Of a stretch of 64,000 nucleotides of DNA, positions 5,972 through 20,939 are shown piece after piece. The notes beneath the pieces were generated by a model. It saw only the letters and a program-made list of their open reading frames with translations. It was not told where the DNA came from and ran no database searches. This DNA comes from Dillenia suffruticosa (lineage: Eukaryota; Streptophyta; Magnoliopsida; Dilleniales; Dilleniaceae). The translations under genes were made by a program, and so were the position numbers. The stretch spans positions 13,002,174-13,066,173 of the forward strand of contig JAVTVX010000002.1 of NCBI GenBank assembly GCA_033439265.1, given 5' to 3'. Each line of letters opens with the position of its first letter. Positions within the stretch are counted from its first letter, which is position 1.

Positions 5972-6744
5972 AAAACAATTTGAAAAATCAGATAAAGTTA
6001 CAAATATCACAATATTGTATTGATTAATCAGGCATTTTTAACTTGCTCCCAATATCTGTTTCTCTTTTTTGCCGGTGGTGTTTATGGTCTTGTAAGTATT
6101 TTACTGTAAATTATTTTAGGGAAATATTAAGCCTGGCTGTTGGAAATGATCATAATTTCATTAAGTAATGAAAGTTGAGTTAGACTGGACTGCAAAATGA
6201 GGATTTAATATATGATAATCTAATTTTTGAAAAAAAAAAAGTTGCAATAAATTCTCTTTGCTCCCAAAAATCTTGACTCCAGTGGCTGTAAGTTCAGGGA
6301 AAAAGAAGAGCCTGAAGATGCAGGAAGCTGATATTGCATTTCCAAGAATTTGGAGGCACCTCCATCCTTCTTGTGGCATAGTACTCGAATCAAGGTGTCT
6401 GCATCATTCAAGTTCCGACGGCCATATATAAATGAATTTGATCCAGTTGCAATTCTTCACTCGCAGCCATCAACATTTTGATGACAGTTTCAGTCTGCAA
6501 AAGGAAGATATGATACTTATTTCACTATTCTCATGTTAGGCTTCCTGATTCTCAAAGGACAGCTTTCAAACCTGAAGCCAAAAAAGGCTTGAGATTTCAT
6601 GTGCAAATACTGCCTCTGTCTCAACTAATGGGCGGGGAAGGCCTTCTTCATCAGCAACAAAGAAATCCTACGGATTCAGTAACTTGATATATGTAAAGAA
6701 AGTGATGTGTAGATATGTATCAACTAAGCGCTCAAATTGGGAAG

Positions 6745-8338
6745 TGATGATATTATTGGAAAGAATTATTTTAGAAAGTACATATTATTGAAAAAGATTT
6801 TTTAGGATATTTAGAAACTAACAAAAAAAATATTCTAAGAGGAATAGTATTTTCCTCATTTTAGTTGATAGCAATTTTTTTAAAATTAGTTGTTACCCTA
6901 GTTTTGAAAATCTTTCATATTAGAAATGATTTTAGAGATTCGTCTTTAATAATAATTCTATTTTATTGTAAACTCTAGTTTTCTCTATTTAAAGGACTAT
7001 GATCAACAAAGAGACGAGTCTAAATTCTCATAAAAGTAGTACGGCAGAAAACTTGCTGGGGAACAAGTTCCCAACCATCAAACCTAGGGTCGCAGAGAGA
7101 GAAACCTCTAACAAGGAAGAGAGGAATTCCTAAAGAGTATGCATCGACTAGATCCTGTTCTAGGGACTATATCAATTTGGTATCAAAGTCAGTCGTCATG
7201 GAAAACTCTGCAGAATAGTTTAAACTGATGGAGAAATTCATGAGCGAATTCGAGCATCGAATGGAGTAGCGAATGGAGCAACTAATGGAGCAGACACTGG
7301 CTAGGGTGGAAGAACTCTGGCAGTCCAACAAGAAGTTGCTGCAGCAACAGCAGACAGCACTGATCTTGCCAATATAAAGGTTTCAGCAAGAGCTGCAGGG
7401 GCACAACAAGGTTGCAGAGTTTAGAAACAGCAGCCACACCCTTGCAGACCAAGGGGAGGAAAGGAGTAGTTTGCTGGAAGGATTGCCATCCCCAGAAAGT
7501 GCCCTGACCTCAATAGTTATGAATATAATAAGTTTTGGGCAGGATCTTCAGCTTTACATTCATGACATTCACGTCGGCAAGGCTACGGTTGAAGAAAACA
7601 TTGGTTCATACATTCATGACAACAAAATTGGTATCTTAATAGAGGTAAATTGTGAGACAAATTTTGTCGCTCATGGAGATATCTTTAGGGAACTGGTTGA
7701 TGATCTGGCCAGGCAACCAACGGTCTATCTACAAGTGCAATATCTTATTACAGATGCATGTCCTAATGATTCTAAATTTGCAGAGGAAAGGGAAATTCTG
7801 GAAAGTCCAAAGAAGAGTATGAGGGAGGAGGCTTATCAGGAGTTCTTGAAAACTTGAGAAGACCCATCCTGAATTCGAACTTGAGGACAAGCTCTTTGTC
7901 TAGGAGGAGAGTAATGATGTGTATTTGAACATTATTGAAAAGAATTATTTTAGAAAGTGCATATTATTGGAAAGAAATTTCTTAGAATGATATTTAAAAA
8001 CTAATAAAAAGGAAATATTCTAGGAGAAATAGTAGTTCTTTTTTATTTTAATTGATAACAATCTTTTTAAAATTAGTAATTACCTTAATTTTGATAATCT
8101 TTCATATTAGAAATGATTTTAGGAATTAGTTTTTAGTAATAATTCTATTTTATTATAAACTCTTGTTTCCTCTGTTTAAAGGGGATATGATCAATTAAAA
8201 GGCAAGTCTAAATTCTCATAAAAGTAGTCAAGTTCCCGGCCGTCGAACCTAGGGCCTAAGAAAGGGAAAACTCTAGCAAGGAAGAGAGGAATTCATACAA
8301 GTATCCAACGACTAGATCCTGTACTAGGGGCCATATCA
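6745..8338 (+). mobile_element. Non-autonomous Ty3/gypsy-derived LTR element carrying an EF-Ts fragment (fossil)
   Basis: Two LTRs, 6745-7174 and 7915-8338, start TGATG and end ATATCA. Flanks GGAAG (6740-6744) and AGAAG (8339-8343) look like a 5-bp target duplication with one change. A primer site TTGGTATCAAAG begins at 7177 and a purine tract AGGAGGAGAGTAA precedes the second LTR. The 740-bp interior has a short gag-like charged coiled leader, a piece of a host organellar EF-Ts gene (7588-7848) and, just before the second LTR, ELEDKL, typical of the end of gypsy polyproteins. There is no protease, reverse transcriptase or integrase. The LTRs differ by very roughly 12-15 percent by eye, so it is the oldest of the bounded LTR elements here. 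It lies in an intron of the MUN pseudogene, antisense to it. Confidence 0.7.
7588..7848 (+). pseudogene. Captured fragment of an organellar (plastid-type) translation factor EF-Ts gene
   Basis: The encoded segment reads IGSYIHD, then IGILIEVNCET, then ELVDDLA, followed by VQYL and a Lys/Glu-rich stretch ending EEAYQEF. These are signature blocks of EF-Ts, the nucleotide exchange factor for EF-Tu; the SYIHD..IG..IEVNCET order is that of the plastid form in plants. Only this internal piece is present. It lies between the LTRs of the element at 6745-8338 and no intron is visible, which suits capture from a processed transcript. I treat it as a fossil passenger and not a working gene. Confidence 0.7.
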
Positions 8339-9792
8339 AGAAGATGACGTTTTGTTGGCAAAAGAAATTTTGCCATGTCATTTTGCCTCTTTCCTTTTCC
8401 ATTGGCTGGGAAGTGAGGCCATACCTTCAAGATGTTAAGGTCATCTTCCAGCAAATCGATGTCAGAATCATCAAGTAAATTACATATATGGTCCAGGACA
8501 TACAGTATTGCCTTCGAATAATAAGAATTCAAGAAAATCATAAAACATGTAGAATCCCTATTTGTTTGGATAATTGGCTTATCATGAGATAACGGGGGAT
8601 GATTTAATTTAATTTCTTACAGTATCAACACTGGGAAGAATGCTATCAATGCAAGCACCTTCAACACCACCACGATATAAGGAAGACAGGAATGAGTCTC
8701 TCAGATCCCAGAAGACAACTTTTGTCCCTACAATTTGGACGGGAATAACAGAGACTAAGGTCCAAAAATGTGAAAACATTAAAAGCTACATAAATGCTTG
8801 GAATAACTGGATAAAGACATTGTAAGGTGAAACAAGGATTGCACAAAGCTTTCAAATAATCAGGTTCTTGCACCAAGAACAATCACAGAAAATTAAGATC
8901 ATTTGTAAAATCATTTAGAAAATGATGGGATACAGGTGACATAAGTGCTAAGATGGTCAAAGATAGAAGAAACAAAAGTCATTATTAAGATTCCAAAAAT
9001 TTTGATGAGATGAACCAAATTTCAAACCAAAGAAATCGATATCGAAGTTTGGCATAAGGTCAAAGGATGTTTCTGCATACAATAATGGACTAAGTAATCT
9101 AAAAAAGACTAGGTAAAGTGCAGATCTGTAAAATGCAAGTGCTTGACCAAGCATAACTGAGGAAAAACATCAATCAAGACTCAGGTTCGGTCCATGCAAC
9201 ACATGGCATGTCATGGGCTGCCAAGTAATAATAGCTAAAATCCTTTCACAACTACAAATTAAGCCTAGCAAGCCTCATTTAACTCACCAGCAAAGTCCCG
9301 GATTTTGCTGATAGCATCACTTGTAACATCCTTAATACAGTCAAAGGTAGTAACAAATAGCTCATCTACTGATTCACCACATGTTGGTACAGCTCTTTCC
9401 AAATTATCCTCAGGTTCACATTTGGCTGCTTGAGTTACAGTTGACCATAAATAGTAATGAAGATGTTAACAGATGTTCATCAATGAAAACTTGATGGACA
9501 ACATGTAACTTTTTCAATTAACTTGTCATGTTACAGTGATAGACTGTGATAAGCAATCTCAACAAATTAAGAGACAAGCAAGCACCATACAAACAATTAT
9601 CAAGAGTGTAACAGATTTATCCTGATACCAAATGGAAGGAATAGACAAAATTAAGAGGCATTTTACTAATTACTGCAGCTACCAAATATTGCATAACAGA
9701 GGAAAGAATCAGTAATAGTAATTTGCCTAATGAATACTTACTCCAGCTTTGATCATCAGATAGTCTGACAAGTGACCAGGATTTCCTAATGC

Positions 9793-16140: not shown

Positions 16141-16614
16141 TGTTGAATTGTGCAAAACAAATGCATAAAATACTTTGAATAAAAATTCAGAATATCATTG
16201 ATATTTTGAGAGAATTTGCATACAACTTGTGAGCATTTTTTCATGCCTTCAAAGAGCCACTAGAAGCCCTATTTATAGAGAAAGAGGAGAGAGAGAGCTA
16301 AAGAGAAAAAAGAGAATGGAGAGGGCACTGCCCTCTCCTTTTCTGGCCATTGGGGCTGTCCCCAACGGCTAGATTTTACTAGCCGTTGGGGGCAGACCCA
16401 ACAGCTCCTTGAAGGAGCTGATGGGGCCCTTTATGGGCCCCTTTGAGATGAAAAAGTCTGGGTCCTATAGGACCCAGCAGATGCCCACAGGCTGAGCCCA
16501 TTTAGGGCCCAATTTGGGTCCCTAAATGGACTGGACAGACTCGACTTAAAACAGGAAAAATCTGTCCCTTTGATGGCTTACAAAGAGAATCCCTAATTCT
16601 CCTTCATTTCAACA
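16141..16614 (-). repeat. Copia 3' LTR
   Basis: 474-bp long terminal repeat, near-identical to 20476-20939. It contains five consecutive perfect or near-perfect hairpins between about 16321 and 16482, described under findings. A Copia purine tract abuts its right side. Confidence 0.95.
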
Positions 16615-19600
16615 CTCCCCCTCAAGTTGGGCGTATATATATCTATAACGCCTAAGTTGTCCATATTTTTGAGGATGTGTTTTGCGGTTCCCGACTTGGT
16701 GAGATTATCAGCAACTTGATGATCACTCCTTTTAAAGCTAGGAGTGATGAGCTTTTCTTCAATCTTTTGTCTCACAAAGCGACAATCTACCTCAATGTGC
16801 TTTGTTCTTTCATGAAAAATCGGGTTTGAAATTATGTGAATTGCCGATTGATTATCACAATGAAGATGAATAGGGGTTGAGACGGAGAATCCAAATTCTT
16901 CAATAAGAGCCCTTAACCAAACTATCTCGCTTGTTGCGGCCGCCATAGCTCTATACTCTGTCTCAACACTTGACCTTGATTCTATATGTTTTTTGCTCTT
17001 CCATGCCACTAGATTTCCTCCAACAAACATGCAATACCCTGAGGTAAATCGTCTATTTTCCGAATCTCCGGCCCAATCCGCATCACAATAACCTATAATT
17101 TCTGAGTTGCCATTTTCCTTCATCCAAATTTCCATGTCTGGAGTGCCTTTTAGGTAATGGAGAATCCTTTCTGCAGCTCTCCAATGCTTTTTCTTTGGCT
17201 TGAGCATGTGTTGGCTTACTTGACTCACGGCGAATGAAATGTCCAGCCGGGTTATGGTAAGATAGATCAACCTCCCTATAAGGCTTTGATATCTTTGTTC
17301 ATCTTCAAACTCTTTATCATCATCCTTGAGACCGTAAGAGGAGCTGATGGCACTACATGCGCGCTTGGCACCTAACTTCCATGTTTCCTGCAAAAGATCA
17401 AACGCATATTTTCTTTATGATAAAACAAGCTCATTTGAACAATAGGTAAGTTCTATCCTTAATACTTTAGTTTTCCTAAATCTTTAATGTCAAATTTTGT
17501 TTGGAGAAATTTTCTAATTTAGTTGATCAAATTTAAATCATTTCCGATTATGGTTATGTCATCTACGAAAACTAACACAACGATAATTTTTCCATCTTGC
17601 CTTTTAACAAAGAGAGATGTATCGCTATTGTATTTCTTAAAATTATGATTGAGAAGAGTAGTGCTAAGTTTTGCGTACCAAACTCTTGGAGATTGTTTGA
17701 GCTCATAAATTGCTTTCTTTAGTTTGCAAACTTTGTTGTTATGATGAGAAAACCCCGGATAAATTTCCATATATACTTCTTCTTCTAGGTCCCCTTGGAG
17801 AAATGCGTTTGTTACATCCATTTGGAACATTAGCCAAGAGTGATTAATTGCAAGAGACAATAAGACCCGAATTGTGTTCATCTTGGCCACCGGTGCATAT
17901 GTCTCTTTGTAATCTACTCCATATGCTTGAGTGAAACCCTTTATCACTAATCTTGCCTTGTATTTATCAATGCTTCCATCACTCTTATGTTTGATCTTAT
18001 AAACTCATTTGCATCCCACAACTTTCTTTCCTTTTGGAAGTAATGATATTTCCCATGTCCCATTCTTAGTTAAGGCATCTAGCTCATACTTCATGGCTTA
18101 GACCCATTGAGGATGATGTTTGGCTTCTTCAAAGGTTCTAGACTCTTGATGTTGATCTATGTTTCTTATGAAAGCTTGGTGGCTCAAGAAAACATGTGAG
18201 GTGGTATAATAGTCACAAATTAGATATCTTTGACTCATCCACTCCAATGGAGGAAGTCTAAGCCTTGTTGATCTTCGAAGAGGAGGCGGAGATGCATCCG
18301 GTTCTTCCATGGCTTGGTCGGATGTCTCTTCTTCCACTATTTGTTGTTCTCCCCCTGAGGTAGATGTTGGTTCCTCTTCATTGTTTTAAGAGTGGGCCGT
18401 ATCTTGGGAACCATTTCTTTCGTCAATTTGAGAGGGTGGTAGGTATGGTAGAACTAGGAAGTCCCTAGTTTTTGTTGGAGCATTTTCCTTGGGTGCTTCT
18501 TGTGTCTCCTTTCCTGAAAAGAAAAACTCTTTTTCTACAAATATCATATTCTTAGATGTGTATGTTCTATTAGTTATAGGATCATAACATCTATAACCCT
18601 TTTCAAGTGATGCATAACCTAGGAATAAGCATTTTCTACCTCTATAATCTAATTTGTCCCTAAATTGTGAGAGAATGTGAATATAACATGTACACCCAAA
18701 AACTCTAAAATGTGAGATCCTTGTTTTTCTTCTTAAGAGGACTTCTAATGGTGACAAGCCCTTTAAAATTTCAGTGGGCATTAAGTTCATCACATGGATT
18801 GCAGTTCTAACCACATCACACCAAAATTTCTTTGGGACATTGGCATGGATCATCATAGCTCTTGTGATTTCTAATATATGTCTATTTTTTCTTTCGGCCA
18901 TCCCATTTTGTTGGGGTGTGTAAACACATGACATTTGATGAAGGATCCCATTGTTTCTTAGGAAGCTTTCAAATTTGTGGCTTATGTATTCTCCACCATG
19001 ATCTGTTCTAAGGACCTTAATTTTGGCATTGTATAAGTTGGTCATATATTTGAAATAGCTTTTGAGTGCCTCAAAAGCTTGATCCTTGGAATGTAAAAGG
19101 TATATCCATGTGTACCTAGTTTTTTTGTCAATAAATGTGATAAAATATTTGTATCCTAGATGTGACATGATAGGGGAAGTTCAAATGTCCAAATGTACTA
19201 GTTCAAAGGGAGAGATATACTTGCTTTCTGAACTAAGGTAAGTGGTTCTTGTTTCTTTCCCTAATATACATGCTTCACAAGGCTTGTTTTCAATGATCAA
19301 ATTTGGAAGAAGAAGTTTCAATGCCTTATTGTATAGATGTCCTAGTCATGCATGCCAAAGTGAAGCATCATCATTAATGTGGGCATGAGTGCATAATGCT
19401 CTTGATGTAAGTAATATAGGCCTCCTTTTTGAGTTCCTCTGCCAATCAATTGATTTGTCTTTGGATCATGAAATATGACTGTGTCCGAATCAAAGGTGGC
19501 CCTACACCCTTGATCCTTTTTGATCTTGCTAATAGACAAAAGATCGGAAGTAAGTTGGGGAACAAATGAAGCACTTGTAGATTTTCCAAAAATTTCAACT

Positions 19601-20475
19601 TCTCCCATTTGTTTTACTTCTAGATTTTGTCCATTAGCAACACGCAGTACCCTTTGGTTAGGGAGCTTTTTAAAACGTTTGATTTTTCTCCTTTCCCTAA
19701 TCATGTGATTATCAGTTCCGGAATCTATGAGAAATTTTTCAGAGTTTAAAGAAGAGATAGGGTTTTGATTGTTACCATCTATGTGCGCTAAATGTTAACA
19801 CCTTTTCAAGTGAATATCCGGTCAATCTTGAAAGGCTGCACATTGATAAACACTTCCGGTCACCACGGAAGCATAAGATCTTCTTTGTTGAGCTGATTCA
19901 TGAAGCCCCTTTAGGCACTCATCTGCCTTTGCTTGGAGATCAGTGCATTCGGCCATCATAGAGACTGAAATTTGATCTTTTGCTTGTGAGCTAAATAGGG
20001 ATAGAACTTGAGAGATATGTCTTTCTTTTTGGGCCGGCTGTTGTAGATCTTTTATGCACTCATTTAGCTTGATTTGAAACTCATCACACTTGGCTCTTAT
20101 TGATGATAAAGGATCTGCATAGTGTGCAGCAGCTTGGTGGCCGGATTTGAGAGGAATGGATGCATTTTGTTGCTGCTCCATTGTAGCAGCGAAGACTTTC
20201 CCTCCATTCAGAATTTGGTTTTGATTTTGAGGCATTTTGGATACCTTTATTTGCTGAATGGCGACCTTTATTTCTTCATAATGTGGAAGCGCTTTTATAT
20301 TTGGGGTGTCTTGATGCAACTTCCACCATAACTCCAAGAATTTGAATACTCCAAATGGCTCTTTCAAAAGGAGGCTTAAATCATCGCATAAATTTGGCAA
20401 TTTTTGTATGATATCTACCCAATTTGAGTGATTTTTGGTGTTGAGAAGATGGAGTATTGCCTGCTCTGATACCAT

Positions 20476-20939
20476 ATTGAATTGTGCAAAACAAATGTAC
20501 AAAATTCTTTGAATAAAAATTCAGAATATCATTGATATTTTGAGAGAATTTGCATACAACCTGTGAGCATTTTTTCATACCTTCAAAGAGCCACTAGAAG
20601 CCCTATTTATAGAGAAAGAGGAGAGAGAGAGCTAAAGAGAAAAAAAGAGAATGGAGAGGGCACTGCCCTCTCCTTTTCTGGCCATTGGGGCTGTCCCCAA
20701 CAGCTAGATTTTACTAGCCGTTGGGGGCAGACCCAACAGCTCCTTGTAGGAGCTGATGGGGCCCTTTATGGGCCCCTTTGAGATGAAAAAGTCTGGGGTC
20801 CTAAAGGACCCAGCAGATGCCCACAGGCTGAGCCCATTTAGGGCCCAATTTGGGTCCCTAAATACTGGACTTAAAACAGGAAAAATATGTCCCTTTGATG
20901 GCTTACGAAGAGGATCCCTGATTCTCCTTCATTTCAACA
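20476..20939 (-). repeat. Copia 5' LTR
   Basis: 464-bp copy of the repeat at 16141-16614. It is adjacent on the inside to the initiator-Met primer site, so it is the 5' LTR of a minus-strand element. On its right side it touches the MUN pseudogene exon at 20944-21189. Confidence 0.95.

Follow-up and report, generated by a model that had tools for sequence, protein, structure and literature searches.

An apparently non-autonomous LTR element family of Dillenia suffruticosa with pieces of plastid EF-Ts and other host genes

The maize LTR element Bs1 carries pieces of three host genes, and the available text of the same source describes both an Arabidopsis TRIM with a fragment of a single gene, a cytochrome P450, accounted for by 3' transduction, and abnormal template switching of LTR elements (the review PMC13317346). 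In soybean, the gene-carrying TRIM GmaRetroS15 holds exon-only pieces of three host genes, one of them comprising exons 5-9 without introns, and the gene-carrying elements in the available part of that report have 5-bp target duplications (PMC4717578). By its anatomy, in which the LTRs enclose exon-only pieces from several host genes, an element family of Dillenia suffruticosa is of the same kind as Bs1 and GmaRetroS15. Like Bs1 it is an LTR element with several host-gene pieces; unlike Bs1, the copy number of which is low, it has pieces of five host genes or domains in combinations that vary among subfamilies, and many copies. It resembles GmaRetroS15 in being a small LTR element with exon-only host-gene pieces; the differences are that both the LTRs (about 430 bp) and the whole element (1.5 to about 2.8 kb) are longer, that several gene cassettes occur in one slot, and that microhomology joints are seen in the Dillenia family. 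The P450 TRIM is likewise small and non-autonomous and carries a host-gene piece, though of one gene. Small size and the lack of coding capacity agree with a TRIM, whereas the LTRs are longer than the very short LTRs of that class, for which the limit is about 100-250 bp. What is unusual is that five genes or domains were sampled and reshuffled between subfamilies, and among the titles listed in a literature search none concerned an LTR element with EF-Ts.

The window, that is, the whole stretch of 64,000 nucleotides that was analysed (assembly GCA_033439265.1, contig JAVTVX010000002.1, positions 13,002,174 to 13,066,173, forward strand), contains one copy of this family. A first-pass annotation had described an LTR element between 6745 and 8338, and the observation was borne out: an old, defective LTR element is confirmed at these positions. 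Repeat alignment paired 6752-7175 with 7931-8339 at 79.7% identity (433 aligned columns, E 3.6e-108), and the K2P divergence of the LTRs is 0.157 over 404 sites. The ends, TGATATGCAC... and ...CATATCA, were set by comparison with other family copies and place the 5' LTR at 6745-7174 and the 3' LTR at 7912-8338, both on the + strand. These are direct repeats with the TG...CA termini of LTR retrotransposons, the 3' LTR of the window copy beginning with TA instead of TG. The left flank GGAAG (6740-6744, with termini taken via other copies) and the right flank AGAAG (8339-8343, read from the sequence) agree at 4 of 5 bases, and there is no perfect duplication in the window copy.

The interior has, 3' of the 5' LTR, a primer-binding-site-like TGGTATCAAAGTC (7178-7190, + strand), recognized by sequence reading and copy alignment and which we take to match the initiator Met-tRNA, and, 5' of the 3' LTR, a purine tract (7902-7911), as LTR retrotransposons do. 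A tRNA scan and an Rfam scan found nothing, and a plasmid search gave no match. Between these sites, all on the + strand, lies first a degenerate N-terminal part common to the family (7198-7555), termed gag-like by position only, for which a genome search yielded 206 candidates and 40 of these were scored. It is followed at 7556-7576 by repeated ATTCATGAC-like words which, in an alignment of 21 copies, appear to be EF-Ts-derived recombination debris, probably marking the site of a renewed join between a deletion and a longer copy. The captured plastid EF-Ts piece, from the first EF-Ts domain, spans 178 bp (7577-7754) and aligns to a donor gene on contig C12 at 79.8% identity with no indel. The tail (7755-7911) begins with a short piece and continues with the 3' module common to the family and its purine tract, and includes a C-terminal scrap with a short motif that may be gypsy-like. 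The short piece between EF-Ts and the common tail (7755-7790) reads CPNDSKFA; it is in the same place in other EF-Ts copies and was not seen in the related loci L059 and L061.

The EF-Ts content that had been read from the sequence was verified by both profile and structure searches. The open reading frame 7378-7857, which includes some of the gag-like part, matched EF_TS only in Pfam (3.8e-7, 30.3 bits, cut-off 27) and the solved EF-Ts chains 1tfe and 1aip at ~1e-9 (PDB 1tfe, 1.3e-9), and a chance resemblance to EF-Ts is ruled out by these matches. NCBIfam tsf gave 1.8e-5 and 24 of 104 bits, far under its cut-off, as a fragment would be. The donor alignment covers only 7577-7754 of this frame; the remainder derives from other parts of the element and from recombination debris.

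The plastid two-domain EF-Ts is a nuclear gene with two paralogs in the 596 Mb genome, and an EF-Ts family search located the two-domain loci on contigs C12 and C27 and a third locus, of scattered exons, on C34. The two-domain type is that of the plastid polyprotein gene EMB2726/PETs, which in the available text of PMC8343077 has its two EF-Ts domains at the C-terminus; the element holds part of domain 1 only. Identity to domain 1 of C12/C27 is 79.0-92.3% among 31 element copies, and 8 of 9 copies compared also align to the second EF-Ts domain, at 67-74%, with the donor's own domain 2 being 72% identical to its domain 1. Mitochondrial EF-Ts was considered as a donor and is ruled out, with only one of the nine copies compared (L009) having a single 51-bp match to C34. 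The organellar source proposed in the first-pass annotation was thus correct and, from the C12/C27 alignments, is specifically plastid and not mitochondrial. The annotation had also proposed an origin from spliced EF-Ts mRNA, and a comparison of the fragment with the exon borders of its parent gene. A single open donor frame (nt 4245-5084 of L053 reversed, exon from about 4362) takes in the whole captured stretch, no border is crossed, and splicing therefore cannot be shown from the EF-Ts piece itself.

Mutations shared among the copies bear on the history of this capture. At the 12 sites that differ between C12 and C27, the majority of copies equal C12 at 6 and C27 at 6, and because of this split the capture is suggested to have preceded the divergence of the paralogs; a short tree placed C27 beside the element copies and did not resolve the donor paralog. 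At sites where both paralogs have G, the copies have A in 25 of 25 (site 33), 29 of 30 (site 173) and 23 of 29 (site 78) cases, and such non-donor states, being common to nearly all copies, point to EF-Ts having been captured once. The first EF-Ts domain of the C27 paralog (L054, C27:2861500-2871400) lacks one base and is broken up between reading frames.

Genome searches with the element and with EF-Ts support the earlier proposal of a multicopy, gene-carrying and apparently non-autonomous family. The whole-element search gave at least 70 dispersed matches (40 scored of 436 candidates), and distinct EF-Ts copies number at least 31, namely the window copy, 20 fetched loci and ten more found via the EF-Ts search. 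Perfect target duplications of a fixed length, 5 bp, flank 8 of the 20 copies with two LTRs, the window copy being among the 20; in two of the eight, L018 and L026, the terminal base is changed. Chance matches in L015 and L025 and a second match in L026, off the LTR ends, were left out of this count, and L020, for which no second LTR match was obtained, was excluded from both the LTR-divergence and the target-duplication sets. The duplications rule out that the repeats are not LTRs. K2P divergence of the LTR pairs is 0.09-0.25 in 20 copies, and the insertions are therefore old in relative, not absolute, terms.

The copies fall into an X type (nine copies; L024-L028, L042, L047, L050, L052) in which EF-Ts is preceded by up to about 270 bp from another gene, an M type (four copies; L039, L045, L049, L051) in which the EF-Ts piece is longer and a MED15-like piece is present, and a short type (18 copies, including the window copy and L048, the latter with a trace of the X piece). 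Neither a CCCH-like nor a MED15-like piece is present in 17 of the 31. A deletion joining CTTTCC to ATTCATGACAGCAA was evident in L016, L017, L022 and L023 in the alignment of 21 copies, which suggests that the short copies arose by this deletion, and that in the window form such a deletion end may have been re-joined to an upstream part of EF-Ts at about AGCAA. The window copy is in any case a shortened derivative. Internal regions of 20 copies measure only 635-1026 bp and have no room for a polymerase gene, the product that an autonomous LTR retrotransposon encodes, and the family appears from this to be non-autonomous. An autonomous partner was not found among the few candidates read of 40 scored from 486 LTR candidates. 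As individual features, L014 and L023 have a further primer-site word immediately after the 3' LTR, apparently in tandem LTR-internal-LTR arrays, L050 has a copia-RNase-H-like reading upstream of its CCCH-like piece, and the gag-like part of L049 contains about 800 bp of other DNA.

In differing copies the same slot contains, in sense orientation, EF-Ts, CCCH-like, MED15-like, PRP3 and MBD pieces; the CCCH, MED15 and PRP3 pieces were placed by BLAST on the sense strand only, so that antisense pieces of these would be missed. Paralogous genes on C17 and C20 contain the counterpart of the X piece, 81-88% identical in DNA, within one large open exon. About 5 kb downstream on C17 is a CCCH-finger-like sequence (Pfam zf-CCCH_12, 0.0012) that would belong to the same gene as this exon, and the CCCH label rests on Pfam matches under cut-off; the large exon itself matched nothing in Pfam or PDB. 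A search with the CCCH-like piece gave 140 matches, 119 of them at E<=0.01, which on removal of the two donors form 96 clusters; in 86 of the 96 the piece is represented by at least 20 residues, most clusters being known from search matches alone. The counterparts of the M piece are a gene on C8, which we take to be MED15-like, and a relative on C10. The exon of this gene gave weak glutamine-rich matches in PDB and one match in Pfam (E 0.82), and the stretch upstream of the gene, read by eye, revealed nothing useful. The PRP3 piece occurs in L061, L059 and L060, with donor exons on C16 and C34, and is 85-92% identical to these in L061 and L059 and 76.5-77.9% in L060. The donor gene on C34 has Pfam matches to PRP3 (2.2e-48) and Prp3_C (2.7e-42), and the PRP3 piece itself found nothing in PDB or Pfam. 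Additionally, L060 has a methyl-CpG-binding domain (Pfam MBD, 2.1e-6). A coiled-coil-like piece (LEAQARDLGQRKLHIEELEEKE in L059) precedes the tail in L059 and L061 and is perhaps from a sixth host gene.

The MED15-like piece bears on the route by which host sequence entered the family. Its C8 donor has a GT..AG intron of about 137 bp between AAAGTG and GTCAAATC, and this intron is exactly absent in 6 of 6 fetched copies with the stretch (L039, L045, L049, L051, L060, L061), which at the splice joint show nothing but point differences. Splicing is in this way demonstrated for the MED15-like donor, one donor only, the PRP3, CCCH-like and EF-Ts pieces being within single open frames; the spliced-mRNA origin proposed for EF-Ts thus gains its support from sister copies. 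The pieces also adjoin at microhomologies: AGCAGGA at the MED15/EF-Ts joint (4 copies), AGCTGG at the MED15/PRP3 joint (2 copies), and AAGGC, 5 exact bases within a longer imperfect match, at the CCCH/EF-Ts joint (7 copies aligned). Because every copy has decayed, each joint had to be pieced together from a number of damaged sequences. When the same donor stretches were cut at random, 200,000 times for each donor pair, runs of at least 7, 6 and 5 bases had frequencies of 0.0008, 0.0022 and 0.0072, respectively. Joints at such microhomologies fit template switching during reverse transcription, and together with exact intron loss they are direct evidence for an mRNA route.

Capture at the DNA level, by double-strand-break repair, nested insertion or ectopic recombination at one locus with later amplification, would accommodate the EF-Ts, CCCH-like and PRP3 pieces, each in one open donor frame, and short microhomologies are also typical of end-joining; yet the exact loss of the MED15-like intron in all six copies, the sense orientation of all the pieces found and the separate contigs of the donors (C12/C27, C17/C20, C8, C16/C34) make it unlikely. 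Read-through transcription (transduction) of neighbouring genes with subsequent internalization is listed, beside abnormal template switching, among capture mechanisms of plant retrotransposons in the available text of PMC13317346. It is still less likely for a family in which the pieces lie between the gag-like start and the tail, not beyond the LTRs, come from several contigs and directly adjoin each other. The window copy is very probably an old member of a non-autonomous family whose slot was filled with host mRNA pieces by template switching and which was amplified in trans. In such a mechanism host mRNAs would have been co-packaged with element RNA, and reverse transcriptase would have jumped at short homologies onto spliced host mRNAs, so that the slot between the gag-like start and the common tail received their pieces. 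The chimeras would then have been amplified in trans by enzymes of an intact relative, and later recombination would have cut the element down to the window form before its insertion.

The family can be read as a record of exon shuffling via reverse transcription in a plant: a single set of LTR elements took up parts of five nuclear genes or domains, combined them in varying order and spread the resulting chimeras. Since more than one stage is preserved in the same genome, sequence comparison can trace the order of capture, the joints and how template switching contributed.

Whether the EF-Ts piece encodes a functional portion of a protein of the element was evaluated from codon positions. Long copies are readable in one frame over long stretches of the gag-like, CCCH-like and EF-Ts parts, as a functional role would have it. 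Against this, differences from the C12 donor number 258/252/293 by codon position in the EF-Ts part of 31 copies (private changes 45/41/50), and changes in the CCCH-like part of 8 copies number 39/40/50. The gag-like part of 29 copies gave 51/51/58 private and 6889/5874/5511 pairwise differences, counts that are rough because the frame was taken from L025, which is itself broken. As a donor control, C12 and C27 differ at 12/14/24 of 720 positions in the exon and at 6/1/5 in the captured stretch, a weak control with C27 being frameshifted. From the nearly flat change over codon positions we reject a continuing coding constraint on EF-Ts. Stops and frameshifts in many copies, and the insertion of 17 of 31 copies despite having no CCCH-like or MED15-like piece, likewise argue against a coding function, which we consider extremely improbable. 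Because change is nearly flat, the captured pieces look like passengers.

A further idea is that the family keeps acquiring pieces of important host genes since shared sequence protects it from silencing. The other donors are presumably also important genes, and plastid EF-Ts is embryo-essential in Arabidopsis according to the available text of PMC8343077. If the idea were true, small RNAs directed at the element would have plastid EF-Ts and the other donors as further targets, strong silencing would be costly to the plant, and cassettes would be swapped as old ones diverge. At least one exact 21-mer in common with the donor exons of either EF-Ts paralog is kept in 22 of the 31 copies, and on this basis cross-targeting of element and donor by small RNAs is possible. 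Protection as the cause of repeated acquisition is improbable, and the shared 21-mers make it testable.

The window copy lies antisense within an intron of a PATROL1-like gene (6668-8424, - strand; GT at 8424 and AG at 6668, splice sites by eye), into which the shortened form would have been inserted last. Pfam TPR_PATROL1 matches flank the element in the right order, at 8609-8785 (2.7e-6; 26.9 bits against a cut-off of 27, thus narrowly below it) and at 6220-6456 (1.4e-9). Elsewhere in the window, open reading frames at 16593-20520 (- strand) read like a Ty1/copia element, with what we take to be integrase, reverse transcriptase and RNase H motifs.
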